From the NCBI RefSeq assembly GCF_003697815.1, contig NZ_RDQG01000007.1, forward strand, positions 1 to 64,000: 64,000 nt of DNA, given 5' to 3'. The notes beneath the pieces were generated by a model. The model ran no database searches and was not told where the DNA came from. It saw only the letters and a program-made list of their open reading frames with translations. The translations under genes were made by a program, and so were the position numbers. How positions within the stretch are numbered: position 1 is the stretch's first letter; every line of letters starts with the position of its first letter. The DNA is from Halalkalicoccus subterraneus. GTDB lineage: Archaea > Halobacteriota > Halobacteria > Halobacteriales > Halalkalicoccaceae. Below are positions 26,964 through 40,234 of the stretch, piece by piece.

Positions 26964-28166
26964 ATGACGAATAACAAGAGCTGGACACGGCGGGCGCTGT
27001 TGGGTGCTGGCGGGGCGACACTTACTGCAAGCACGGCCGGGTGTCTAGGTTCAGTTCGTAACACCGGAAATCAGAACGGCCAGTTCACGGTCGGTGAGAT
27101 CGGGAACTCCGACGACAACTGTCTGGATTGTATCTCGCCGTCGCCGTCGTTCGCGATCGCCGAAAGGCTTCGGACGGAATCGGACGGCGAGTTGACGATG
27201 ACGGTTCAGCCGAGCAACCAGATCTGCAGTTCGGCGAGCTGTGGAACGAAGGTCCAAAGCAACGTCATCGAAGCCGGGTACGGTTCGATCGGTAACTCGA
27301 CGGCGTTCTTCCCGGAAAACCAGATCTGGCTCGTTCCGTATACGTTTCCGTCGCCGGAATCGATAACGCACACGCTCGTTCACGAAGAGGCTTGGGAGAA
27401 CTTCTGGGTCCCGTTCGCTCGGAAGTACAACGTCCTTCCGTTCTATTACTGGACGCCTGCGCTCAGGGACGTGTTCATCTCGGAGGGGGGAACGCAACTG
27501 ATCGGTGGTGACGATCTCAGGCGACCGGAGCAACTCGAGGGCCTGATCATCCGCCGAACCGCCTCGCGGGCCGCCGCGGAGTCACTCTCGACCTGGAGTG
27601 CGAGTCCGACTGAAGTCTCCTGGGGCGATACGGTTCAGGGAATGGAGACCGGCGTCATCGACGGACTCGAGACGTGGTCCTCGGTCGCGATCGGCTCCGG
27701 AATGGGGTCGGTCATCGACCAGGTCGTCGAGACGAGTTTCATGTGCGGGCAAGGGACCATCTGGGTGAATACGGACTGGCTGAAGAGCCTCCCGGATGGT
27801 CATCGGGAACTGCTCGCTGACACCACACGGGAGTTGACCGAGCAAGCGGTCGCGATCGCCGACGAACTGGTAGACGAACGCGTCGGTCAACGGGAATCGC
27901 CACCGGATGGTTCGGCATGGGACGAACTCGGTGTGACTGTGAATATCCTTGACGACGACGAACGACAGGCGTGGGTCGACCCGCTCGATCCGCGCGAGAA
28001 CCCGGAGAAGTGGGCGCCCGAACGGGAACTGCTCGAGAACTTCGAGGAGACGCCCGACGACTTCTATGACCGGATCTACGAGATCGCAAACGGGAACGGT
28101 ACGCCGGACTCGCCGTCCGAGTTCACCATCGACGCGTGGTGGGACGACTACCTCGACGAAATATAG
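26964..28166 (+). CDS. dctP: TRAP transporter solute-binding lipoprotein DctP
   Basis: A 400-residue DctP-family binding protein. The N-terminus has a twin-Arg Tat-like signal (SWTRRALLGAGGATL) and lipobox STAGC near 29, so it is exported folded and anchored outside. Family landmarks are IEAGYGSIGNSTAFFPENQ, the LRRPEQLEGLIIRRT ligand-Arg region and TVQGMETGVIDGLETW. Four Cys near the N-terminal part (DNCLDC, ICSSASCG) are unusual and could form disulfides or hold metal. The gene opens a dctPQM operon downstream of tRNA-Arg and has less extreme codon bias than its neighbours, suggesting transfer. Confidence 0.92.
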   Translation: MTNNKSWTRRALLGAGGATLTASTAGCLGSVRNTGNQNGQFTVGEIGNSDDNCLDCISPSPSFAIAERLRTESDGELTMTVQPSNQICSSASCGTKVQSNVIEAGYGSIGNSTAFFPENQIWLVPYTFPSPESITHTLVHEEAWENFWVPFARKYNVLPFYYWTPALRDVFISEGGTQLIGGDDLRRPEQLEGLIIRRTASRAAAESLSTWSASPTEVSWGDTVQGMETGVIDGLETWSSVAIGSGMGSVIDQVVETSFMCGQGTIWVNTDWLKSLPDGHRELLADTTRELTEQAVAIADELVDERVGQRESPPDGSAWDELGVTVNILDDDERQAWVDPLDPRENPEKWAPERELLENFEETPDDFYDRIYEIANGNGTPDSPSEFTIDAWWDDYLDEI

Positions 28167-28171
28167 AGATC

Positions 28172-28732
28172 ATGTCAACGATAACGAAAACGAGTGACAC
28201 TCGCGTTCCGAACTGGGCACAGTATCTCGAGAAATACTTCGAAGGGATGGTTGCTCTGGCGCTGTTGATGACCGTACTCGCCATTACGGTCACCGACATC
28301 TTCGGTCGCACCTTCTTCGCGTGGACGATCGATTGGGGCTTCGGGGTCGCACAGGGACTGTTCGTCTGGATCGCGTGGCTCGCAGCGTCGTTCGGCCTCC
28401 GGCACCGATCGTATTTCCGGTTCACGCTGTTTCGGACGAAGCTCTCACATCGTGCTCAGTTCCTCATGTACGTCATCGAGTGGGTACTCTGGTGTATCGT
28501 CATCGGGGCGATATTCTGGCACTCGATCCCGGAGTTCTTTCAGGTCCTCGCTTCCGGCCGGATCGTCGTCGGCACTGAGAACGTGCTTCAAGCGTACTTC
28601 TATCTCGCAGTGCCGGTCGGAACGGGGTTGATCCTGGTTCGGGTGCTACAGCAGGCGATCACCATGACGCTCGCCTATCGGGACGGCGATGACATCAGCC
28701 CGGATCCACGAATCGGGGTACGGGACGAATGA
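28172..28732 (+). CDS. dctQ: TRAP transporter small permease DctQ
   Basis: A 186-residue four-helix membrane protein. The DctQ pattern is visible in VTDIFGRTFFAWTIDWGFGVA and LFVWIAWLAASFGLRHRSYF. It pairs with DctM to form the sodium-driven transport unit. The ATG at 28172, 5 bases after the dctP stop, is chosen; the frame's earlier ATG at 28136 lies inside dctP. Its last four bases overlap dctM. Confidence 0.9.
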   Translation: MSTITKTSDTRVPNWAQYLEKYFEGMVALALLMTVLAITVTDIFGRTFFAWTIDWGFGVAQGLFVWIAWLAASFGLRHRSYFRFTLFRTKLSHRAQFLMYVIEWVLWCIVIGAIFWHSIPEFFQVLASGRIVVGTENVLQAYFYLAVPVGTGLILVRVLQQAITMTLAYRDGDDISPDPRIGVRDE

Positions 28733-30024
28733 TCGTCCCGAGTCTTCCCCTCGATGTGGTACTACTGGCGGTCGCGGCCATCAGCGTCGTGCTGTTCGCA
28801 CTCGGCGTGCCGCTCGTACTCTCCTTTGGCCTGTGGGTCATCGCGTTTTATTTTGCCGTTCCCGGGTTCTCGATGGCGAACGTTTCGATCACGGCCTTCA
28901 GCGAGTTGGAGTCGTTCACCTACATCGCGATCCCACTGTTCATCCTCGTCGGTGATCTGTTCAGAGAGGCGGACATCTCCAAGGACGTCGTCGCCTTCTC
29001 ACGTGCTTGTCTCGGCTGGCTCCCCGGCAGTACCGGGAACACGGTCATCGGAACGTCCGCGATCTTCTCAGCCATTACCGGTTCGAACGCTGCGACGACC
29101 GCATCGGTCGGACAGGCGCTCTATCCGTCGATGAAGGAGGAAGGATACGAACCAGGGTACGCATCGGCCACGATCGCCGCTGGAGGAACGATCGGCAGCG
29201 TGCTTCCCCCGAGCATCATGCTCATCATCTATGGCGTCACATTCGGTGTCTCGATCCCGGATCTGTTCATCGCCGGCATCATTCCGGGCCTGGCGATGGT
29301 CGTCATCCTGGTGGGAATCAACATGTATATCACGGAGAAGGAGGGTTACGGCGTTGATACCGACGCCTACTCCTTTGAGGCCCGAAACGTCGCAGAAACG
29401 GCCTGGCGGGCGAAAATCGGGCTCGGTGCCATCGTCATCTTGCTTGGCGGTATCTTTGCAGGAATCTTCTCACCCGCAGAATCGGCCTCCGTCGCCGTAC
29501 TGTACATCCTAATCACGGCATTCGTTACCGGTCGGATGCGTACCGGGCATGACGTCGTCGAAGCCGGTTATACGTCCCTCGTGCTGGTCGGCGTGTTGAT
29601 GCCGATCATCGTCATTGCCGTCCTCGTCCAGCAGAACCTGGCGTATCTCGACCTTCAAGACGTGGTTTCAAACGCGATCCTCTCGCTCGGTTCGGACTGG
29701 CTCGTCATCGTCGCCCTCATCGGGGTCGTGTTGATCGCGGGCCTCGCACTGGCGTCGATTCCGAACGTCGTACTGACGGCGCCACTCTTGACCCCCGCCG
29801 CACTCGAGATCGGGCTCGATCCCGTCGCATGGGGTGTCATCTTCATTCTGGGTGACGCGATCGGGTTCATCACCCCGCCGTACGGGCTGAACCTCTACAT
29901 CATCAGTGGTCTTACGGAGATCGACTATATGATCGTCGCGTATCGTGTTCTCCCGTTCCTCGGCGGGCTACTGGCGCTGTTAGTGGTTCTTCTGGCCGTT
30001 CCCGAGGTCAACTTCCTCGTCTGA
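28729..30024 (+). CDS. dctM: TRAP transporter large permease DctM
   Basis: A 431-residue membrane protein with about 12 segments. Family signatures are FTYIAIPLFILVGDLF, SAITGSNAATTASVGQALYP, GGTIGSVLPPSIMLIIYG and GDAIGFITPPYGLNLY. It is the transport channel for the DctP-bound solute, probably an organic acid. The ATG overlaps the dctQ stop by four bases. This is a three-subunit TRAP system, distinct from the fused TAXI system at 19.2-22.7 kb. Confidence 0.95.
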   Translation: MIVPSLPLDVVLLAVAAISVVLFALGVPLVLSFGLWVIAFYFAVPGFSMANVSITAFSELESFTYIAIPLFILVGDLFREADISKDVVAFSRACLGWLPGSTGNTVIGTSAIFSAITGSNAATTASVGQALYPSMKEEGYEPGYASATIAAGGTIGSVLPPSIMLIIYGVTFGVSIPDLFIAGIIPGLAMVVILVGINMYITEKEGYGVDTDAYSFEARNVAETAWRAKIGLGAIVILLGGIFAGIFSPAESASVAVLYILITAFVTGRMRTGHDVVEAGYTSLVLVGVLMPIIVIAVLVQQNLAYLDLQDVVSNAILSLGSDWLVIVALIGVVLIAGLALASIPNVVLTAPLLTPAALEIGLDPVAWGVIFILGDAIGFITPPYGLNLYIISGLTEIDYMIVAYRVLPFLGGLLALLVVLLAVPEVNFLV

Positions 30025-30463
30025 GAACGTCGCTTTCCACTGTTCTAGCCGATACTCATCGAACCGGTCTCGTGAACGATCGCACGCTTCTCTTACACAT
30101 CCGGTATCCCGAAGTAGTCGTCTGGGAGAACGGAATGCCGAGAAAACAGTTGGAAACGGCGAAATTCGATCGGCAGTCGCAACCCCTATTTACCAGCGAG
30201 TTGGCTCAGAAGCGTCCGAAACCGGAGCGGCCGATTCGTCGTCGTCCGTCCGCCGTAACCGTCCATCGCCGCGCCCGCGTTCTCCATATGTCGTGTTCTA
30301 CTCATTTTACTCATCCCGTAGTAAGAGCGTAGGCCATTTAACGATTTTCGAGGGAAACGATCATCAACGACAGCGAATCGCATGCTCTCGGCTTCCGCCG
30401 TCCGTTCGAATGATATCAGTTCTACCGAAACTCTTTTTTAAATATGTATTTTCTATATATTTA
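30025..30463. other. Gene-free gap between dctM and the pilus ATPase
   Basis: About 440 bases without a credible gene. An 86-codon open frame at 30072-30332 has basic, non-haloarchaeal composition and is rejected. The last 50 bases are very AT-rich and carry the ATPase promoter. The stretch may mark the right edge of the acquired TRAP segment. Confidence 0.5.
30435..30445 (+). promoter_or_regulatory. TATA box of the pilus ATPase operon
   Basis: TTTTTAAATAT is centred about 24 bases before the ATG at 30464; a second AT-rich stretch, TCTATATATTTA, reaches up to the start codon. A leaderless mRNA is likely. Confidence 0.5.
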
Positions 30464-32638
30464 ATGTCAAAAGGAGATGCCGGCAGTATCGGTACGGGAT
30501 CCAATCCACGTTCGTCGACTGACGGCACAGCCGTCGAGGAAGGATCGGCGACGGTCGGAGGGGAATCCGTCGCCGACGGCTCGCGCCCGGTCGATTCGAC
30601 CGGCGAGTCGATCCCGTTCGATTCCGGCACTATCGAGGGCGTCCTCTCCCGGGCCGGGAGTCGCGCGAGCGCGCTATCGGGGGTTATCGACGACCGGACC
30701 GTCGACGTGGCCGTCGGGCTTGACGAGGATTCGTTTTTCACTTCGAACGGGGAACCAACGCTGACGACCCGATACGACCTCGAGAAGGCCGTTCCGCCGC
30801 CGAAAAAGCGCCACTTCGAGGAAATCGAGCGCTACTGGGTCAACGAGCCCTACGCGTTCGTGATCCTCTTTCGCTCCCGGAAGGAAAACGAAACCAAGTA
30901 CTACGTCGTCGAGCCGTATCGAAACCTGATCGAACGTGAACTGACGGGGTTTCTCACCGGCAAACTCCGTACCGCGATCAAGTACACCGACGACGAGGTG
31001 CGCGTCGAGGGAAGCGTCGCCGAGCGTGAGGCGGTCATCGAGCGTGAGACCCGCCGGCTGCTTGAGCGATACGGCTTGCTCGAGCGGTCACGAGCGGGAT
31101 TATTCGATCGTCTGAAGGCGTTCGTGGGCCGCGACGGGAAGGCCGAACTACCGGGGATAGAAGGTATCAGACCGGAGCCGGCGATCCTCGCCGACGACCC
31201 CGAGACGGCGAGTCGAACGCAGGTCGAACGGCTGCTGTACTATCTCAAGCGCGATTTCGTCGGCTACGAGCGAATCGACCCGATCAAACACGACATCAAC
31301 GTCGAGGACGTCTCCTGTGACGGCTACGATTCGCCCGTGTTCGTCTACCACACCGACTACGAGCAGCTCATCACGAACGTGGCTCACGGGCGCCAGCACC
31401 TCGACGATTTCGTCGTGAAACTCGCCCAGCGATCGGGCAAGGGGATCAGCAAACGCACCCCGCAGGTCGATGCCACCCTGCCCGACGGCTCACGCGCCCA
31501 ACTCACCCTCGGGCGGGAGGTCTCGGACCACGGCACCAACTACACCATCCGGCAGTTCAAGGACGTCCCGTTCACACCGATCGACCTGATCAACTGGCAC
31601 ACCTTCTCGCTCGAACAGATGGCGTACCTCTGGCTCTGTATCGAGAACCACAAGTCGCTGCTCTTCGCCGGCGGAACCGCAAGCGGGAAGACCACCTCGC
31701 TCAACGCCGTCTCGCTGTTCATTCCTTCCAATGCGAAGATCGTCTCGATCGAGGACACCCGCGAGGTCGAACTCCCGCAACGAAACTGGATCGCCTCGGT
31801 GACTCGCCCCTCGTTTTCCGACGACGAGGGCGGCGACGTCGACGAGTTCGACCTGCTGGAAGCCGCGCTCCGCCAGCGGCCCGACTACATCGTGATGGGC
31901 GAGATCCGCGGCGAGGAAGGGCGCACGCTCTTTCAGGTCATGTCGACGGGCCACACCACCTACACCACCTTTCACGCCGATTCGGTGGGCGAGGTCTTGA
32001 AGCGCTTCACCACCGACCCGATCAACGTCTCGAAGACGATGTTCACGGCGCTGGATCTCGTCTCGGTCCAGACGTCCACCCGCGTGCGGGGCCGGAAGGT
32101 CCGACGGAACAAGTCGCTGACCGAGATCAACCATTACGACGCCGAACACGACGAGATCAACGTCCGCGACGTCTACGAGTGGCAGGCCGACTCCGACGCC
32201 TTTCTCGCGGTGGGCGAGTCGAACACGCTCGATGAGATCCGCTTCGACCGCGGCTGGAGCGACGAGGAGCTCGACGAACAGCTGCTCATCCGGCAGGCGG
32301 TGCTCGCCTATCTCATCGACGAGGGGCTCAACGAGTATCGCCAGGTCGCCGCCACGCTTCAGGCCTTTATCAACGACCCCGAGACGATCCTCGACCTGAT
32401 CGCGAACGACGAGCTCGCCGAGAGCCTGACCGACCTGCGCTCGATGGAGAGCGTCCTGATCGACGTCGATCCCGAGACCGAGGCGCTCGTTCCCCGTCCC
32501 GATCCCGACGAGGGAACCGCACGCCGGGCCCGCGAGGTCCTCGACCGGGCCGACGAGCGACTCTTCGCCGCCCGGCGGGGTTCGTCGGGGTCGCTCTCGA
32601 CTGCGTTCTCGGCGGACGGACGCGGGGACGGGCCGTGA
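30464..32638 (+). CDS. Type II/IV secretion ATPase (PilB/TadA-like)
   Basis: A 724-residue archaeal pilus/secretion ATPase. The first 80 residues are a Ser/Gly/Asp-rich extension. The RecA-like core carries Walker A GGTASGKTTS at 403-411, the Asp box IEDTREVELPQRNW, a Walker B-like DYIVMGEIRGEE near 477-488 and the His box TGHTTYTTFHAD. It powers assembly of pilin-like subunits through the PilC-like protein encoded next, whose GTG start overlaps its stop. The start at 30464 follows the TATA boxes; upstream in-frame codons are AT-rich and non-coding. Confidence 0.94.
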   Translation: MSKGDAGSIGTGSNPRSSTDGTAVEEGSATVGGESVADGSRPVDSTGESIPFDSGTIEGVLSRAGSRASALSGVIDDRTVDVAVGLDEDSFFTSNGEPTLTTRYDLEKAVPPPKKRHFEEIERYWVNEPYAFVILFRSRKENETKYYVVEPYRNLIERELTGFLTGKLRTAIKYTDDEVRVEGSVAEREAVIERETRRLLERYGLLERSRAGLFDRLKAFVGRDGKAELPGIEGIRPEPAILADDPETASRTQVERLLYYLKRDFVGYERIDPIKHDINVEDVSCDGYDSPVFVYHTDYEQLITNVAHGRQHLDDFVVKLAQRSGKGISKRTPQVDATLPDGSRAQLTLGREVSDHGTNYTIRQFKDVPFTPIDLINWHTFSLEQMAYLWLCIENHKSLLFAGGTASGKTTSLNAVSLFIPSNAKIVSIEDTREVELPQRNWIASVTRPSFSDDEGGDVDEFDLLEAALRQRPDYIVMGEIRGEEGRTLFQVMSTGHTTYTTFHADSVGEVLKRFTTDPINVSKTMFTALDLVSVQTSTRVRGRKVRRNKSLTEINHYDAEHDEINVRDVYEWQADSDAFLAVGESNTLDEIRFDRGWSDEELDEQLLIRQAVLAYLIDEGLNEYRQVAATLQAFINDPETILDLIANDELAESLTDLRSMESVLIDVDPETEALVPRPDPDEGTARRAREVLDRADERLFAARRGSSGSLSTAFSADGRGDGP

Positions 32639-34638
32639 GCCTCGCGCCGAGCAGAGCCGACCGGATCGGCGACGCCTTCTATCCGCTCTATCGGCTGGTC
32701 TTCGGCGAGGACAACCAGTTCGCCGCGGAGTTCCAAACGACCCTCACGCGCGCCCGGATGGGCGACACCGTCGAGCACTACCTCTCGCGAGCGCTCGCCT
32801 ACGGCGTCGCCTCCGGCGGGTCGTTGTGGATCCTCGGTACCCTCCTCGGCTACGGGCTGTTCGCGACCGGGCTCGTCTCCCCGCCGCTCGTCAGCGTCCC
32901 GGTCACCGACGAGCGCCTGATCGCGTTTCTGGCCGCCACGCGAATCCCCTCGCTGATCGCCATTACCGGCCTGTTGTTGGGCTCGTTGGGGTTCGCGCTC
33001 GCGTTCGGGGCGTGCGTCGCGATTCCTCACTCGCGGGTCTCCGCGAGAAAGCGCGAGATCAACGTACTGCTCGCCGATTCGGTCGCGTTCATGTACGCGC
33101 TGTCGGTCGGCGGGCTCGACCAGCTCGAGATCATCGAAGCGATGGCGAACGCCGACGACACCTACGGCGAGGTCTCCCGGGAGTTCCAGTCGATCGTCCA
33201 CGAGACGGAGTACTTCGATACGGACTACCGCACGGCGATCAGAGATCAGGCGCACGAGACTCCCTCCGAGGAGCTGAGCCAGTTTCTCACGGACATGCTC
33301 TCGATCGTCGACTCGGGCGGGGACATGACGCGATTCCTCGAGGACAAGAAGGACAAACACATGCGCACGGCCAAACAGCAGGACGAACTCACCCTCGAAA
33401 CCCTCAAGCTGTTCGGCGAGATGTACATGACCCTCTCGCTGTTCCCCCTGCTTCTGATCATCCTCCTCGTGATCATGAGCATGCTCGGGGAGGGCTCCGA
33501 GTTCATGCTGTATGCGACGGTCTACGCGTTGATCCCGCTGATCGGGGTGGCCTTTCTCGTGCTCGTCTCGACGGTGAAACGCGACGACCCCGGCGACGGC
33601 TACCTCCGGGAGGACGAGGAAACGACCGACTCGGCGGGGCGCAACCCGCTGTTCGACCGCGGGTTGATCGAGCGCTACACCGGTACGTTCGGCGTGTTCG
33701 ACCGGATCGAACGCCGCGAGGGGAACCACGAGACGGGTGCGCTCCTGTTGCGTCCGCATCGCTTCTTCCGGGACTACCCGGTCTACACGCTCGCGCTGAC
33801 GGTGCCCGCCGCGCTCGCGCTCGTCGCCGTGGCCGTCTCGTCGGGGGCTGCGCCGCTGTCCTGGGGCAGGTTCATCGCCGTGCCCGTCTGGTCGACGGTC
33901 GTCTGGGTATACGTACCCGTCTACGTGATCTGCGTTCCGCTTGCGGCCTTCAGGGAGTGGAACGTCCGCTCGCGGACGGCGATCACGGGTACGCTCTCCG
34001 ACACCCTCCGCAAGCTCTCGAGCGCCAACGACACCGGGATGACGCTGCTCGAATCGGTTCGAGTCGTCGCCGAGACCTCCTCGGGGAAGCTCGCTCGCGA
34101 GTTCGAGGTGATCCACACGAAGGTCGTCTACGGGACGAGCCTCCAGGGGGCGCTGACGGAGTTCAACAACAAGTACCACGTCCCGCGATTGGCCCGCACG
34201 GTCAAGCTGATCGGGAAGGCCCAGGAGACCTCCGGCCGGATCACCGCGGTCCTCACGACCGCGGCCCAAGCCAGCGAGAACCGCGACGACATCGAACGCG
34301 AGCGCAGATCCAGAACCCGCATGCATGTCGTGATCATCGTCATGACCTACCTCACGCTGCTCGCGGTGATGGCGGTCCTCAAGACGCAGTTCCTCGACGT
34401 GATGGCCGGGCTGGACACCGACGGTGCGGGACCAGCGGCGGGCGCCGGCGGCCCCGAGTTCGGCGGCGGACTCGATACGGGCGTGCTCTCGGTGCTGTTC
34501 TTCCATGCGGTGACGATGCAGGCGATCCTCTCGGGGCTGATCAGCGGCTACATGCGCGACGCGGAGATCTTGAGCGGCGTGAAGTACGTCCTCGTTCTCA
34601 TGACGGTCGCACTCTGTGTCTGGGTGGTGGTCGGGTAG
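32635..34638 (+). CDS. Type II secretion F-domain platform protein (PilC/TadC-like)
   Basis: A 667-residue polytopic protein with two T2SSF domains, each with a cytoplasmic helical bundle (SREFQSIVHETEYFDTDYRT near 180-200; AREFEVIHTKVVYGTSLQG near 490) followed by hydrophobic segments. It forms the membrane platform that the ATPase drives. The start is GTG at 32635, overlapping the ATPase stop by four bases (GTGA). The stop is directly abutted by the next ATG, so the three genes form one operon. Confidence 0.93.
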   Translation: MSLAPSRADRIGDAFYPLYRLVFGEDNQFAAEFQTTLTRARMGDTVEHYLSRALAYGVASGGSLWILGTLLGYGLFATGLVSPPLVSVPVTDERLIAFLAATRIPSLIAITGLLLGSLGFALAFGACVAIPHSRVSARKREINVLLADSVAFMYALSVGGLDQLEIIEAMANADDTYGEVSREFQSIVHETEYFDTDYRTAIRDQAHETPSEELSQFLTDMLSIVDSGGDMTRFLEDKKDKHMRTAKQQDELTLETLKLFGEMYMTLSLFPLLLIILLVIMSMLGEGSEFMLYATVYALIPLIGVAFLVLVSTVKRDDPGDGYLREDEETTDSAGRNPLFDRGLIERYTGTFGVFDRIERREGNHETGALLLRPHRFFRDYPVYTLALTVPAALALVAVAVSSGAAPLSWGRFIAVPVWSTVVWVYVPVYVICVPLAAFREWNVRSRTAITGTLSDTLRKLSSANDTGMTLLESVRVVAETSSGKLAREFEVIHTKVVYGTSLQGALTEFNNKYHVPRLARTVKLIGKAQETSGRITAVLTTAAQASENRDDIERERRSRTRMHVVIIVMTYLTLLAVMAVLKTQFLDVMAGLDTDGAGPAAGAGGPEFGGGLDTGVLSVLFFHAVTMQAILSGLISGYMRDAEILSGVKYVLVLMTVALCVWVVVG

Positions 34639-35880
34639 ATGCCCTCACGGGGACAGGCCGAACTCGTGGGCGTCGTGTTGCTGATCGGGCTGACGATCAT
34701 CGGGACGACCGCGATCGTCGCGTTGGGGGCGGGGACGATCGCCGATTCGCGCGCGAGTGCCGAAGTCCAAAGCACCGAACACGCGATGACCCTGTTCGAC
34801 TCGACGGTCACGAACGTCGCGCTCGGTGATGCGCCCGTTCGAACCGTCCGGTTCGGTCGAACCGACGGCCGATTCGAACTCCGAGAGGACGTCGGAACGA
34901 TGCGGATCGAACACCACACCGAGGGGGGAGCGCCGCCGGTCGAGTGGAACGGGTGTGAGAGCGCCGCGGGCGTCTGCGAGATCGACCTCGGTGCGATGGT
35001 CTACACCCACGGTGGGACCGAACTCGCCTCTCAGGGCGGCGGCGTCTGGAAGCGTCAGGGCGGGGCGACGACGATGGGATCACCACCTGAATTCCACTAC
35101 CGCGACGGGACGCTGACGCTCCCGGCCGTCACGACGACGGGTACCGGAAGCGCGAGCGGCGCTCCGGCGGCGACGATCCGTCCGGCCGGTGGGAGCGAGG
35201 TCGCACACTCGGGCGCGATCGAGAACGGCACCGTCACGGTGACCGTCCGGAGCCCCTACTACGAGGGCTGGCGACAGCACTTCGAGGAGCGGACCACCGG
35301 GGTGGTCAGCGTCGACCACGACGACCACTCGGTCACCGTCGAGCTCGTCTCGACCGAGAGTCAGGGGCGGTTCGGGCTGGCGAGCAGCGACAACGCGATC
35401 TCGCTTCGGGGTCTGGCCGGCGAGGAACCGATCGAGCGATTCGAACTCACGCTCCATCCCTACGAGGACGATTCGAGCGGGTTCAACGGCCTCGACTGGC
35501 GGTTGCGCGACGAGGGGTCGGCGCTGGAACTGGCCTTCGAGAACCGGGATAACGCGGACGCGATCGACCTGACGGTCACGAGCCCGGACGGACGTGAATC
35601 GCACACCTTCGAGGACGCGTTCGCGGTCGACGGCCAGCGCGTCGAGGCGGACCTGACGGCCGACCGCGAAGCCGAGGGGGAGTCGCTTGACTCGCTGCTG
35701 AACCGCCATCTCGCCGCGGCGGGTCCCGACGTCACCTTCGCCGTCCACGACCGGGGGCGGGGAACGGACGACCGGATCAGCTACGAGCGCTCGTGGGGCT
35801 CCCTCGAATACGAGAGTTCGGGCCAGTCCATCGCGTATCTCCACGTCACCGAAAACGCGGTCGCGGTCCGGTTCAACTGA
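34639..35880 (+). CDS. Large pilin-like protein (DUF7289-type)
   Basis: A 413-residue protein with one N-terminal hydrophobic helix: SRGQAELVGVVLLIGLTIIG. The Arg-Gly followed by Gln and Glu at the junction resembles the class III (prepilin) signal cut by PibD. The long beta-rich rest (domains roughly 80-260 and 270-413, with ERFELTLHPYEDDSS) would lie outside. The ATG abuts the stop of the platform-protein gene, so it is co-transcribed with the ATPase. It may be the tip or main cargo of the machine. Its 3' end overlaps the convergent operon by 8 bases. Confidence 0.8.
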   Translation: MPSRGQAELVGVVLLIGLTIIGTTAIVALGAGTIADSRASAEVQSTEHAMTLFDSTVTNVALGDAPVRTVRFGRTDGRFELREDVGTMRIEHHTEGGAPPVEWNGCESAAGVCEIDLGAMVYTHGGTELASQGGGVWKRQGGATTMGSPPEFHYRDGTLTLPAVTTTGTGSASGAPAATIRPAGGSEVAHSGAIENGTVTVTVRSPYYEGWRQHFEERTTGVVSVDHDDHSVTVELVSTESQGRFGLASSDNAISLRGLAGEEPIERFELTLHPYEDDSSGFNGLDWRLRDEGSALELAFENRDNADAIDLTVTSPDGRESHTFEDAFAVDGQRVEADLTADREAEGESLDSLLNRHLAAAGPDVTFAVHDRGRGTDDRISYERSWGSLEYESSGQSIAYLHVTENAVAVRFN

Positions 35881-36580
35881 ACCGCACGCCGATATCGACC
35901 CGTACGACGTGGAGTTCGTCGGGTTCGAAGGCACATTCGACGGTCCGGTTCGACTCGCACGTACCGCCCCGCGACTCGAAATACTCCGTCCAGGCCCGCT
36001 CGTGTTCGGTCTCGACGGCGATCGTCACCGGCTGCTCAATGGAGGAGTACGAGTACTGCATGGTCCCGATTCGCTCGGCCCGGACCAGCACGGTCCGGTC
36101 GCCGCTCACCGCGGTCGCATCGACGTCGTACAGCTCGACCAGCCGGACGACCAGCCGCTCCTCGCCGATCACGAAGGAGGGCCGATGGGCCATCGAACCG
36201 CCCGCTCCCTCGCCTCTGAGCACGGCGCCGTTCCGGTAGAGGACGTCCGAACCGGTCCCCGAATCGTACACCAGCCGCCCCGACGCGGCGTCGACTACCT
36301 CGCCGCCGACCGAGACGCGTATCTCCTCGCCGCGCTCCACTCGCAGCCCCGCGTCCGCGAGGCTGACCGCCGTAGCCCTGCTCGGGGCGTTTCGCCGCGT
36401 GATCGCCTCGACGTCGTCCGCGAGCACGTCGAAGGCGCGCTCGGCGTTGTTCACCCGTTCGGCGTCGCGCGCGTCGGTCAGGCTCGCCGTGCCCGCCGTG
36501 TAGACGACGCCGAGCGTCGTCACCACGAGCGCGAAGATCAACACGAACCCGACCATCTCGCTCACCCCGCGATCAGCCAT
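35873..36580 (-). CDS. Pilin-like protein with class III-type N-terminus
   Basis: A 235-residue protein beginning MADRGVSEMVGFVLIFALVV, the closest in this set to the classic haloarchaeal pilin signal (RGVSPVIGVIL type). Cleavage after Gly 5 would leave a hydrophobic helix starting Val-Ser-Glu. The exterior part has beta-rich stretches (GEEIRVSVGGEVVDAAS, GEERLVVRLVELYDVDA) and two Cys near the C-terminus (TCESNRTVECAF) able to form a disulfide. The start at 36580 is preferred over the ATG 21 bases earlier. It is the last gene of a five-gene overlapping minus-strand operon. Confidence 0.8.
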   Translation of the reverse strand: MADRGVSEMVGFVLIFALVVTTLGVVYTAGTASLTDARDAERVNNAERAFDVLADDVEAITRRNAPSRATAVSLADAGLRVERGEEIRVSVGGEVVDAASGRLVYDSGTGSDVLYRNGAVLRGEGAGGSMAHRPSFVIGEERLVVRLVELYDVDATAVSGDRTVLVRAERIGTMQYSYSSIEQPVTIAVETEHERAWTEYFESRGGTCESNRTVECAFEPDELHVVRVDIGVRFS

Positions 36581-37007
36581 TCCGCACCTCGATCGTTCCA
36601 TCCTCGAACGCGATCACGACGGGCCCGCCGCCGAGCGACCCCGAGCCCGCGATCTCCACGTCGCGTTCCGCGACGAACGACACCGTAACCGGGTCGTCCG
36701 CACGCTCGCCCCGCAGGACGAGCCGCTCGCCGTCGATCTCGATGCGATAGGTGGCCCCGGCGACGGCGGCCGGAAGCTCCCGCTCGAGTTCGACGGTCGA
36801 TCCGGTTCGCGCGAGGCGGTCGACGGTCGCGAGGTCGGCCGCGAGGCGCTCGCCGTGGACGGTCAGCTCCCCCGTCGTCGCCTGCTGGCGCTGGTCGTCG
36901 ACGACGGAGCCGGCGGTGATGAACAGCCCGGAGACGAGGATCGTCGTGATCGACAGCGTCAGCACGTAGCCGAGCGCCACCGACGTCGCCCGCTCGGAGC
37001 GGCTCAT
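36573..37007 (-). CDS. Small pilin-like protein (DUF7266-type)
   Basis: A 144-residue protein beginning MSRSERATSVALGYVLTLSI, then one hydrophobic helix to about residue 32 and a beta-rich outer part (ATYRIEIDGERLVLRGE, VTVSFVAERDVEIAG). The Arg-Ala-Thr junction before the helix resembles a prepilin-type site. It overlaps its upstream neighbour by four bases and its downstream neighbour by eight. I recognise it as a haloarchaeal DUF7266-like protein; the number is from memory. Confidence 0.75.
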   Translation of the reverse strand: MSRSERATSVALGYVLTLSITTILVSGLFITAGSVVDDQRQQATTGELTVHGERLAADLATVDRLARTGSTVELERELPAAVAGATYRIEIDGERLVLRGERADDPVTVSFVAERDVEIAGSGSLGGGPVVIAFEDGTIEVRNG

Positions 37008-37408
37008 CGTCTCCCCTCCGACGTGACGGCGATCGTCCCGGAGCGGTAGGTCAGCGCCGCGGTCTCGTAGGTGACCTCGATCACCGCCTCGTCCGTCGCG
37101 ATCTCGACGATCTCGACGTCGACGGTGGCCCCCGAGCGGACCTCGTGGGCGAGGACCTGCTCGGCCCACGATTCGATCGCGGCTTCGAACGATCCCTCGT
37201 CGCTCGTGGGAAGCGTCGCGGCGACGTGTGCGACGGCGAGGTCCTCGGCCGCGAGCGCGTCTCGCTCGCCGACGTCGGTCGTTCGCGTCCCGACGCCCTC
37301 GGCGTAGATGACGCCGTTGAGCACGAGCGCGAGCACGACGAACGTGGCCGCGATCGCGAACCCGGCGACCAGAACGAGCTGCCCGCGTTCGTCGGCTACA
37401 GCCGCCAC
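37004..37408 (-). CDS. Small pilin-like protein (DUF7261-type)
   Basis: A 134-residue protein beginning MAAVADERGQLVLVAGFAIA. The Arg-Gly-Gln junction is followed by a 20-residue hydrophobic helix, then an acidic linker and a beta-rich C-terminus (ATVDVEIVEIATDEAVIEV). It overlaps the downstream gene by four bases (ATGA) and the upstream one by 13. No enzyme motif is visible. A minor-pilin role is inferred from the shared layout and operon. Confidence 0.75.
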   Translation of the reverse strand: MAAVADERGQLVLVAGFAIAATFVVLALVLNGVIYAEGVGTRTTDVGERDALAAEDLAVAHVAATLPTSDEGSFEAAIESWAEQVLAHEVRSGATVDVEIVEIATDEAVIEVTYETAALTYRSGTIAVTSEGRR

Positions 37409-37980
37409 ACGACCACCTCCACCTCGACGACGGCGTAGAACGACGACTCGCCGGCGGGCTCGACGTAGAACGACTCCGAATCGATCAGGGAAACGCCCGT
37501 CGCGGACCCGTCCGGACCGCGCAGTTCGTCGTCCCCGTACAGGGTCAACAGGCGGGTGGCGCTCGCGGCGTGATCGCTCGGCTCGCCGGAGTGTACGACG
37601 CGCCGACTCTCCCTCGCCCCTCCGTCGGTCGGGTAGTGGACGTAGAGGTTGTAGGCGATCCCGCGGTCTGCGAACGTGGCGTCGAGACGCTCGCCGAGGG
37701 CGGTGTCGAGCTCGCCCGGCGCGTACTGCTCACCCGGTTCGAGCCCGTGGAACGCCCTCGTCTCGTTGTCCCAGTGGAGGACCGTTGGCCCGAGTTCGTC
37801 CTCCCCGTCCGCGATCCGGAGGGCGTCCTCGGTGGCGGTCCGCTGTTGGTTCTCGATCCCCTGGCTCGACGTGCTGGCTGAAAGCGGCGTCACCGCCGTG
37901 ACCTGCATCGCGAAGAGCAGGCTCGTGACCAGGAGCGCCGCGGCGGCGAACGCCTCGAGGGTGTGGGCCTGTCCGCGCAT
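37396..37980 (-). CDS. Small pilin-like protein (DUF7288-type)
   Basis: A 194-residue protein beginning MRGQAHTLEAFAAAALLVTS. Arg-Gly-Gln lies directly after the start Met and the hydrophobic helix runs to about residue 32. The outer part includes RIADGEDELGPTVLHWDNET and IAYNLYVHYPTDGG. Its start shares one base with the stop of the gene before it. The upstream ATG (27 bases earlier) is rejected because the Met at 37980 places the Arg-Gly-Gln signature at the usual site. Confidence 0.77.
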   Translation of the reverse strand: MRGQAHTLEAFAAAALLVTSLLFAMQVTAVTPLSASTSSQGIENQQRTATEDALRIADGEDELGPTVLHWDNETRAFHGLEPGEQYAPGELDTALGERLDATFADRGIAYNLYVHYPTDGGARESRRVVHSGEPSDHAASATRLLTLYGDDELRGPDGSATGVSLIDSESFYVEPAGESSFYAVVEVEVVVWRL

Positions 37981-38447
37981 CACCACACCTCGACGACGAG
38001 TTCGCACGTCTCGTCGTCGTACAGCACCGTGCGGCGCGTCACCGTCGTCTCGCCGAACTCTCGCGGCGGATCCGGGCCCCGTTCGAGGCGTTCGGCCGGT
38101 CCGTCGAGCGTGACGGTGACCCGGATCGGCTCGGAAACTCCGAGTTCGTCCCGCAGATCTGCCGCGTCGTCGGCGCCATCGAAGAACGCTTCGACGGCGT
38201 CGTCGTCGAGCACCCCTGGTTCCGCCGCGAGGCGGTCCTCGGCGAGGTGGCTCGCGGTTCGGTCCGCGACGACGGGGTGGGCCGGCTGGCCGTTCGTAAA
38301 GGGCACGAGCATCTCGGGGACGAACGAGAAGACGAACCCGATCACGAGGAGGAACGTCACGGTCCCCACCAGATAATCGACGGTCAGTTGCGCTCGCTCG
38401 TCCGACCGTCCCGCCCCGTTCCGTCGTTCCCTGTCCATGGTGACCAT
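37980..38447 (-). CDS. Small pilin-like protein (DUF7287-type), first gene of operon
   Basis: A 155-residue protein. After a charged N-terminus comes RAQLTVDYLVGTVTFLLVIG, an Arg-Ala-Gln junction followed by a membrane helix. The outer part is acidic (LRDELGVSEPIRVTVTLDG, RTVLYDDETCELVVEVW) with one Cys. Two ATGs compete: 38447 and 38438; the TATA box at 38466-38474 lies about 22 and 31 bases before them. It heads the five-gene minus-strand operon that faces the ATPase operon. Confidence 0.75.
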   Translation of the reverse strand: MVTMDRERRNGAGRSDERAQLTVDYLVGTVTFLLVIGFVFSFVPEMLVPFTNGQPAHPVVADRTASHLAEDRLAAEPGVLDDDAVEAFFDGADDAADLRDELGVSEPIRVTVTLDGPAERLERGPDPPREFGETTVTRRTVLYDDETCELVVEVW

Positions 38448-38460
38448 CGTCGCCGTTCGC

Positions 38461-38494
38461 TACGTATATATAATTTTAACAGTATAAAAATACT
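38461..38494. promoter_or_regulatory. Divergent promoter region between the pilin-like operon and a zinc-ribbon gene
   Basis: This 34-base AT-rich patch holds TTATATATA on the minus strand (about 38466-38474), well placed for a leaderless start of the pilin-like operon, and AGTATAAAAATACT (38481-38494), a palindromic TATA-like block that can serve the + strand gene with a short leader. Confidence 0.55.
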
Positions 38495-38560
38495 ATGAAT
38501 AAATTGTCGAACGGGTGGAACACCACCGCGCTTATCGCGGCGGGCGAAGTAGGGGAGCCG

Positions 38561-38755
38561 ATGGCGAAATGGAAGTGTGATGCGTGCGGGACGGTTCACC
38601 GCCGGAACCCGAGCAAGTGCCGTTCGTGTGGGAACACGGTATTGAGCCCGTATCACGGCGACGGGGGCGGACGCCTCGACGACCGGCGGGTGCGGTACGG
38701 GCTGATCGCGCTCGCGGTCGTCGTCGCGGCGCTCGTGGTGATCGTCGCCCTGTAG
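38561..38755 (+). CDS. Small zinc-ribbon membrane protein
   Basis: A 64-residue protein: a zinc ribbon with two CxxC knuckles (KCDACG at 4-9, KCRSCG at 18-23), a short linker and a C-terminal membrane helix (GLIALAVVVAALVVIVAL). I recognise it as a haloarchaeal DUF7577-like family. The ATG at 38561 is chosen because the frame before it (MNKLSNGWNTT...) is not of coding composition. It is divergent from the pilin-like operon and convergent with the MATE gene. Function unknown. Confidence 0.75.
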   Translation: MAKWKCDACGTVHRRNPSKCRSCGNTVLSPYHGDGGGRLDDRRVRYGLIALAVVVAALVVIVAL

Positions 38756-38758
38756 CCG

Positions 38759-40234
38759 TCAGTCCCCGGGCGTCCCCTGCGGCCCGTACGACCGGCTGAT
38801 GACCTTCCACTTGCCGGTCGCGAAGCGATGGTAGTTGATGACGGCCGGAACCGCAGTCTCGGCGACGAACGCGAGGTACAGCCCCCAGAGGCCGAGCGAC
38901 GTGATCGCACCGAGGTAGGCAAGCGGGATGGAGAACGCGAACATCCCGATCGCCTGGCTGTAGAACGGCCAGCGCGTGTCGCCGCTGGCGTCGAGCGGGC
39001 CCGCAGCCCCTTTCGAGACGCCCTGGAGGACGGTCGCGACGCAGGCGGCATAGACCAGCGAGACGGCGATCGGCACCGTCGAGGTCGTGGGATCGTCGAC
39101 GAAGGCGAGTACGATCGGCTCGGCGAACAGGAAGATCAGTACCGCCGAGACGGCGTAGACCGCCACCGCGAAGCGGACAATCTCCCGGCCGTAAGCCTCC
39201 GCGGTGCGCTCGTCGCCGTCGCCCAGTTCCTGGCCGACGAGGCTCGAAGAGGCGAGGCCAAAGCCCCAGCCGGGCGTGTTCATGATCCCCCAGATCCGCC
39301 GGGCGATCACGTACGCCGCGGCGGTGTTCTGGCCGAAGACGTCGACGATCGCGAGCAGCGGGAAGTCCGCGAGCCGCCAGGCGAGGTTCCGGCCCATCAC
39401 TGGCAGGCCGATCGAGACGAGCTGGCGAACCATTCCGCCGTCGAGATAACGGCCGGTCGGGGAGACGGTGACCGGGAACGCCCCGACGACGGGCGCTCGG
39501 CCGAACACCAGCCCCGTCGCGAACGTCGCGGCGACGACGACGTTCGAGAGGACCGTCCCGATCGCCGCGCCGACGACGCCCATGTCGAGCCCGAATATCA
39601 ACACGGCGTTGATCCCGACGTTCACGGCCGCCCCGCCCGCCCGCGCGAGCATCGCGGTGTAGGCGTCGTCCGCGCCGACGAGCGTCCGGCTGCCGATCAG
39701 GTTCAGCGCCGCAAACGGAACCCCCACCGAGACGACCCGCAGGTATCGACTCCCGAGTTCGATCGCCTCGGGGTCGTTGCTGATCAGGTCGAGTAGTCCC
39801 GTCGAAAAGGCCCACAGGCCCGCGGTGACCGGGAGGGTGAGAACGACGACCAGCAGGGCGCTCGATCGCACCGCCCGCCCCAATTCCCCATCGGCGTCCG
39901 CGCCGAACGACTGGGAGACCAGCGCGATCGTCCCGCCGGCGACCCCGCCGCCGACCGCGAAGGCCAGCCCCCAGTACGATCCCGCAAAACCCACGCCCGC
40001 GATCGCCCCCGAGCCGGCCGCGATCCCGACCATCGCCACGTCGACCGCGTTCTTCGACATCCGGGCGATACCCGTCACTACTCGTGGCCACGCCAGATCC
40101 GTGATCCGGCGCGCGCGGTGACGGTCGATCAGGCCGGCGCGCGTGAGCGCCAGCCCGACCCACAGAATGAGCACTTTGACGGGGTTCGAAACACGGCTCA
40201 CAGAACTCGCCCAAACTAGCCGATTCGGCATCAA
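38759..40234 (-). CDS. MATE family efflux transporter
   Basis: An approximately 490-residue, 12-segment MATE exporter of the haloarchaeal type. Conserved spans are MSKNAVDVAMVGIAAGSGAI, GGTIALVSQSFGADADGELG and VGQELGDGDERTAEAYGREI in the second half. MATE proteins expel drugs or metabolites using sodium or protons. The exact start is uncertain: the ATG at 40234 is used, but an internal GTG (VKVLILWVGLALTRAG) about 18 codons later fits homologues as I remember them. It converges on the zinc-ribbon gene with a 3-base gap. Confidence 0.88.
   Translation of the reverse strand: MMPNRLVWASSVSRVSNPVKVLILWVGLALTRAGLIDRHRARRITDLAWPRVVTGIARMSKNAVDVAMVGIAAGSGAIAGVGFAGSYWGLAFAVGGGVAGGTIALVSQSFGADADGELGRAVRSSALLVVVLTLPVTAGLWAFSTGLLDLISNDPEAIELGSRYLRVVSVGVPFAALNLIGSRTLVGADDAYTAMLARAGGAAVNVGINAVLIFGLDMGVVGAAIGTVLSNVVVAATFATGLVFGRAPVVGAFPVTVSPTGRYLDGGMVRQLVSIGLPVMGRNLAWRLADFPLLAIVDVFGQNTAAAYVIARRIWGIMNTPGWGFGLASSSLVGQELGDGDERTAEAYGREIVRFAVAVYAVSAVLIFLFAEPIVLAFVDDPTTSTVPIAVSLVYAACVATVLQGVSKGAAGPLDASGDTRWPFYSQAIGMFAFSIPLAYLGAITSLGLWGLYLAFVAETAVPAVINYHRFATGKWKVISRSYGPQGTPGD

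Follow-up and report, generated by a model that had tools for sequence, protein, structure and literature searches.

What kind of machine is encoded by one ATPase, one membrane platform and six small pilin-like proteins, and which pilin makes its fibre? The question is raised by positions 30464–38447 of the 64,000-nt stretch of Halalkalicoccus subterraneus DNA analysed here (the window), which the original prediction described as a complete but uncharacterised type IV pilus/Tad-like machine. An ORF check of the window recovered all eight ORFs, and their arrangement agrees with the one first described, an operon of ATPase, platform and 413-residue protein facing an operon of five small genes (Table 1); domain families of the eight proteins were assigned with Pfam. 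The platform gene starts with a 4-base overlap of the ATPase stop, and the long pilin gene starts at the base directly after the platform stop, so that the junction reads TAGATG. Overlaps between neighbouring genes of the facing operon, originally put at 1 to 13 bases, amount to 4, 13, 4–10 and 8–29 bases depending on the choice of start codons, which is close to the predicted range but exceeds it at the top. The claimed lack of neighbouring adhesin, archaellin and chemotaxis genes holds, and the archaellum locus lies on a different contig (C34). A TRAP-type transporter of three genes (by sequence, a binding protein plus one small and one large membrane protein) occupies 26964–30024, upstream of the pilus operon, and an 86-aa zinc-ribbon protein with one membrane helix and a MatE-family transporter lie beside the pilin cassette at 38495–40234; neither of the latter two is conserved at other loci. 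The machine parts are complete, with the qualification that the genes for a PibD-family peptidase and two PilA-type pilins lie outside this locus, at other places in the genome.

Table 1. Features of the pilus locus, in window coordinates.
Feature	Position	Strand	Evidence
A+T-rich TATA-like stretch 5′ of the ATPase gene, putative promoter	30432..30463	+	read directly
Assembly ATPase (motor), PilB4-type, 724 aa	30464..32638	+	T2SSE 106 bits; PilB3_C 34.9 bits (cut-off 27)
Membrane platform, PilC/TadC-like, 667 aa	32635..34638	+	T2SSF 89.6 bits
Long pilin-like protein ML (DUF7289 + DUF7308), 413 aa	34639..35880	+	DUF7289 89.7 bits; DUF7308 36.6 bits
Pilin-like protein Ms (DUF7289), 242 aa (235 aa with the alternative start Met at 36580)	35873..36601	-	DUF7289 191.7 bits
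Pilin-like DUF7266 protein, 146 aa (144 aa with the alternative start at 37007)	36573..37013	-	DUF7266 94 bits
Pilin-like DUF7261 protein, short form, 134 aa	37004..37408	-	DUF7261 32.3 bits
Pilin-like DUF7288 protein, 195 aa	37396..37983	-	DUF7288 204 bits
Pilin-like DUF7287 protein, 155 aa, cassette gene 1	37980..38447	-	DUF7287 116.5 bits
A+T-rich TATA-like stretch 5′ of the cassette, putative promoter	38448..38485	-	read directly: TTAAAATTATATATACGTA

Judged by the motor tree, domain make-up and partners of the ATPase, the locus most probably encodes an archaeal type IV pilus machine of the PilB4 type known from Haloferax, HVO_1160 being compared by description. The window ATPase passes the PilB3_C cut-off and scores 22.6 bits on PilB3_N, close to the 25.2 bits of the Haloferax orthologue and like it below the cut-off, whereas four of five PilB3-group proteins reach 54–67 bits and the fifth reaches 33. 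Its nearest solved chain is 2oap, followed by FlaI. A tree of the ATPase core with 35 rows, including Haloferax orthologues with HVO_1160 not among them, groups the window with haloarchaeal orthologues, those of Haloferax included, and apart from PilB3 and ArlI (support 75/91 for the PilB4 group, 96/82 for PilB3 and 100/100 for ArlI). HVO_1160 is described as a PilB4 ATPase with extra terminal parts (PMC4858521); the 1095-aa Haloferax orthologue likewise carries long extra N- and C-terminal parts, which are reduced in the window ATPase. Two hallmarks of the type are present, namely a single plus-strand operon that joins a GspE/VirB11-family ATPase to a TadC/GspF-type platform, and an own pilin set in which one pilin is duplicated and varies in length, here the DUF7289 pair (242 and 413 aa). 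From this size range and duplication we infer that DUF7289 corresponds to arCOG02911.

Models of neighbouring ATPase families fall short of their cut-offs on the window protein. The TadA-family model gives 129.5 bits (cut-off 373.15), so ‘Tad-like’ does not stand as a statement of membership, and the ArlI/FlaI equivalog gives 393 (cut-off 550), the GspE equivalog of type II secretion 35.8 (cut-off 630.25) and the ComGA model of competence pili 54.5 (cut-off 300). That the machine belongs to the type IV pilus family and has six prepilin-like proteins is supported, and ‘uncharacterised’ applies to its function but not to its type, which was predicted in 2016 (PMC4858521) and whose families have Pfam names: the locus is a member of that predicted system type and not a new kind of machine. 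In Haloferax, PilB1 and PilB4 were detected only in cells grown in GMM medium (PMC7305310), and pilB4-C4 decrease upon HFTV1 infection of H. gibbonsii (PMC12542753). Our literature search found no PilB4 deletion study and no mention of these DUF numbers.

The six small proteins have the junctions RGQ, RGV, RAT, RGQ, RGQ and RAQ, each abutting one hydrophobic helix, so that the Arg-(Gly/Ala)-(Gln/Val/Thr) junctions first reported are present in all six, and they are kept among relatives. Specifically, [KR][GAS] directly precedes the helix in 272/310 homologues (46/49, 41/51, 48/54, 51/55 and 86/101 in the individual families), compared with 66/238 unrelated ORFs with a strong N-terminal helix, and in several of the exceptions shown the basic residue alone is substituted. 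In the DUF7287 protein, position +5 behind the predicted cleavage site is occupied by Asp. None of the six reached the Pilin_N cut-off of 25.2 bits in the Pfam scan (best 14.9), and none is PilA by Pfam; the remark that none looks like a normal major pilin is supported.

Profile comparison divides the six pilins into two superfamilies, three of them PilA-like and three not. The DUF7266 protein and both DUF7289 proteins relate to PilA with probabilities of 83–93% (92.5% for DUF7266), whereas DUF7287, DUF7288 and DUF7261 relate to each other at 44–92% and to PilA at 1–7%. The head regions showed no between-family relation in the same comparison, except between the two DUF7289 forms. Arginine is abundant in the cassette proteins, with family medians of 4.0–7.1% against 1.9% for PilA; codon bias was uninformative as a marker of fibre subunits. 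The window DUF7261 protein, about 300 aa long in most relatives, is shortened by an internal loss of roughly 150 aligned positions that are present in most of them. A few other collected DUF7261 relatives are likewise short.

In the AF2 model of the DUF7288 protein (pLDDT 93.2), a 58-residue helix is followed by a mixed alpha/beta head, and a Foldseek search of the PDB with this model returned no fold match at E ≤ 0.001. The model of the 413-aa protein (pLDDT 88.3) has one 56-residue helix and then a mainly or all-beta head, again with no significant Foldseek match in the PDB. Laminin-G/lectin-like matches of this head were discounted as evidence, as their E values were 3.6e-3 or worse and their TM scores low.

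The original prediction hinged on the two gene groups being conserved together across haloarchaea, and they are. We counted as motor orthologues proteins scoring over 500 bits and joined this search with one for DUF7288; among the 79 genomes that are at least 90% complete, 66 have both motor and cassette, none the cassette only, 8 the motor only and 5 neither. DUF7288 occurs in 75/98 related genomes and 34/42 genera, and DUF7287 in 257/394 genomes of the phylum, reaching well beyond haloarchaea. The order 7287-7288-7261-7266-7289 recurs in nearly all fetched regions, non-haloarchaeal ones included (40 fetched, 39 with pilus genes), and at the majority of the 80 named haloarchaeal loci. With a 28-bit cut, 65/80 of these loci contain the motor, the platform and all five cassette families, several of the others being truncated by contig ends; the platform adjoins the ATPase at nearly all loci examined. 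A second DUF7289 gene beside the cassette was not found at about 19/80 loci, some of them again cut by contig ends. The motor and cassette can also lie apart (L063 with L140, L135 with L136, L137 with L138), and two further cassettes have no adjoining motor (L046 and L050). At four non-haloarchaeal loci (L065, L066, L067 and L077), the whole six-gene cassette is present in two tandem copies with no adjoining motor. A cassette that travels as a unit away from the motor and is sometimes duplicated is what would be expected of a fixed hetero-complex.

The facing arrangement itself is not a fixed property of the system. In the window and in one genus mate (G001, L054), the six-gene block at 34639–38447 is reversed relative to the other genus members and to other haloarchaea; among the same-genus loci examined the reversal is limited to these two, which are sisters in the ATPase tree (93/81). 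A single recent inversion in the window lineage thus accounts for the facing operons, and it also set the start of the long pilin gene right behind the platform stop. A different change marks one genus (g7, L125–L132), to which all 8 motor-only genomes belong: here a PilB4-type motor and platform are followed by one pilin of 530–650 aa, and there is no cassette. In the two of these pilins that were scanned, the start weakly resembles DUF7289 and a bacterial Ig-like domain is matched as well, each with a score below the curated cut-off. As the genus nests with a cassette-bearing genome in the tree (93/82), cassette loss is the likelier direction. In one of its members (G058, L127), the motor and platform genes appear fragmented.

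Which motors and pilins accompany the locus bears directly on what the machine builds. The window genome has three T2SSE matches, namely the PilB4-type motor, ArlI in the archaellum locus, and an ORF of 613 aa that, from its PIN-like N-terminal sequence, we take to be a putative PIN-domain ATPase and not a pilus motor. It therefore has one pilus motor, of the PilB4 type, plus the archaellum motor, and no PilB3. In four relatives (G001, G003, G005 and G007), the motor matches are the PilB4 and PIN types alone, and G067 likewise has no pilus or archaellum motor besides the PilB4-type one, with one additional weak match below threshold. These five genomes and that of the window each carry 2–5 Pilin_N genes, and those read out (G000, G001, G003 and G007) include the standard PilA helix SPVIG..LMVAITV. 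If PilA is assembled in such cells, the PilB4-type machine is the likely motor, the archaellum motor being the sole other candidate in the window genome; since it is the sole pilus motor here and in several relatives, it probably builds adhesion pili. Two other genomes have Pilin_N/PilA genes and no such motor, G004 (94% complete, no PilB4-type motor) and G064 (99% complete, zero match to the motor query), so a PilA gene is no proof of assembly by a PilB4-type motor.

Putting these observations together, we give about an even chance to the reading that the cassette is a minor-pilin complex for priming and tipping, that PilA from elsewhere in the genome is the fibre, and that the PilB4-type machine assembles both for adhesion. 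The co-occurrence of motor and cassette, the recurring gene order, the sole-motor genomes with PilA and the arginine-richness of the cassette proteins all count for it, as does g7, where the same motor stands with a single large, weakly Ig-matching pilin. In such a scheme the PibD-family peptidase would trim all pilins, and the ATPase hexamer would drive the platform so that pilins leave the membrane and are added to a helix. The cassette pilins, including the long one, would assemble into a small, ordered six-member complex that initiates the fibre and comes to lie at its tip, like bacterial HIJK, the long DUF7289 protein being its most exposed, contact-making member, while the shaft would consist of PilA pilins, and the likely job would be adhesion to surfaces or between cells. 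The tip placement and a lectin-like character of the long DUF7289 protein are suggested by analogy with tip-located minor pilins that carry lectin or Ig modules, one of them a bulky lectin module (PMC9934059). By the same kind of analogy, the fixed low-copy cassette and the variable multi-copy PilA genes may correspond to the minor and major pilins of bacteria.

A rather unlikely rival is a self-contained pilus whose fibre is built from a cassette pilin, most probably the DUF7266 protein, with no role for PilA. It is close to the published model, as Makarova et al. considered PilA use unlikely for the PilB4-type system and predicted that one of the system's own pilins is the major one (PMC4858521). 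In H. volcanii, PilB4-C4 is expressed, and a structure assembled by it out of two large, co-regulated pilins has been suggested (PMC4371748), in agreement with the pair of DUF7289 proteins. The DUF7266 protein is about the size of PilA and has a PilA-related helix. It sits less well with a cassette that is as a rule present in one copy per genome, with its high arginine content and with the retention of PilA in genomes whose only motor is of the PilB4 type, and we saw no clear case of DUF7266 being duplicated alone.

The original prediction had also suggested a secretion or DNA-handling role, and neither has found positive support. A short pseudopilus acting as a piston for protein secretion would agree with the superfamily that ATPase and platform share with type II secretion and with the lack of an adjoining adhesin gene. 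Such archaea are not known to possess an outer membrane or a secretin through which a substrate would have to pass, and this, together with the low GspE score, makes the piston highly improbable; clustering of flanking genes moreover yielded no conserved non-pilus neighbour (the commonest family is at 23/142 loci), and hence none fit as substrate or channel. Least probable of all is a competence-type DNA-uptake device, which would use the same types of parts but is opposed by the low ComGA score and by the lack of a ComEC-family match in four genomes (G000, G005, G007 and G067); the control search gave matches in bacteria only, so an archaeal channel could differ.

Returning to a cassette that primes and tips PilA fibres, we consider it possible, with confidence somewhat short of even, that the six-gene cassette from two pilin superfamilies seeds PilA fibres encoded elsewhere and that PilB4 would then be a general motor working with or without it. 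For the majority of archaeal pilin-like genes no role has been assigned, and in a sole-motor lineage that retains PilA one can ask directly if PilA fibres are the product of PilB4, and also whether a fixed minor-pilin set starts and tips archaeal pili as in bacteria. New here are the sole-motor status, the two pilin superfamilies, the unmatched DUF7288 head, the probable loss of the cassette in g7 and the recent inversion.

Among known systems, the closest is PilB4-PilC4 of Haloferax (clade 2, HVO_1160; PMC4858521, PMC4371748), which shares the platform and the same cassette genes; the motor core is 82–83% identical to the orthologues of Haloferax profundi, marinum and marisrubri, HVO_1160 not being among those compared. 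The window differs from it in a shorter ATPase (724 vs about 1100 aa), an inverted cassette block and an internally shortened DUF7261 protein. The Haloferax PilB3-PilC3/PilA adhesion pilus belongs to the same motor clade, and PilA-type pilins occur in the window genome too, but no pilins are encoded alongside PilB3, whose core shares about 50–53% identity with the window motor. The archaellum motor has a related ATPase and platform, whereas the window ATPase is 38–40% identical to same-genus ArlI and scores below the FlaI equivalog cut-off. The bacterial HIJK tip complex and PilABC of S. sanguinis (PMC9934059) likewise comprise a small, fixed set of pilins that differ in size, one of them bulky, and are encoded beside a motor; with no sequence or significant fold match to the window proteins, their likeness beyond the pilin helix is by analogy.
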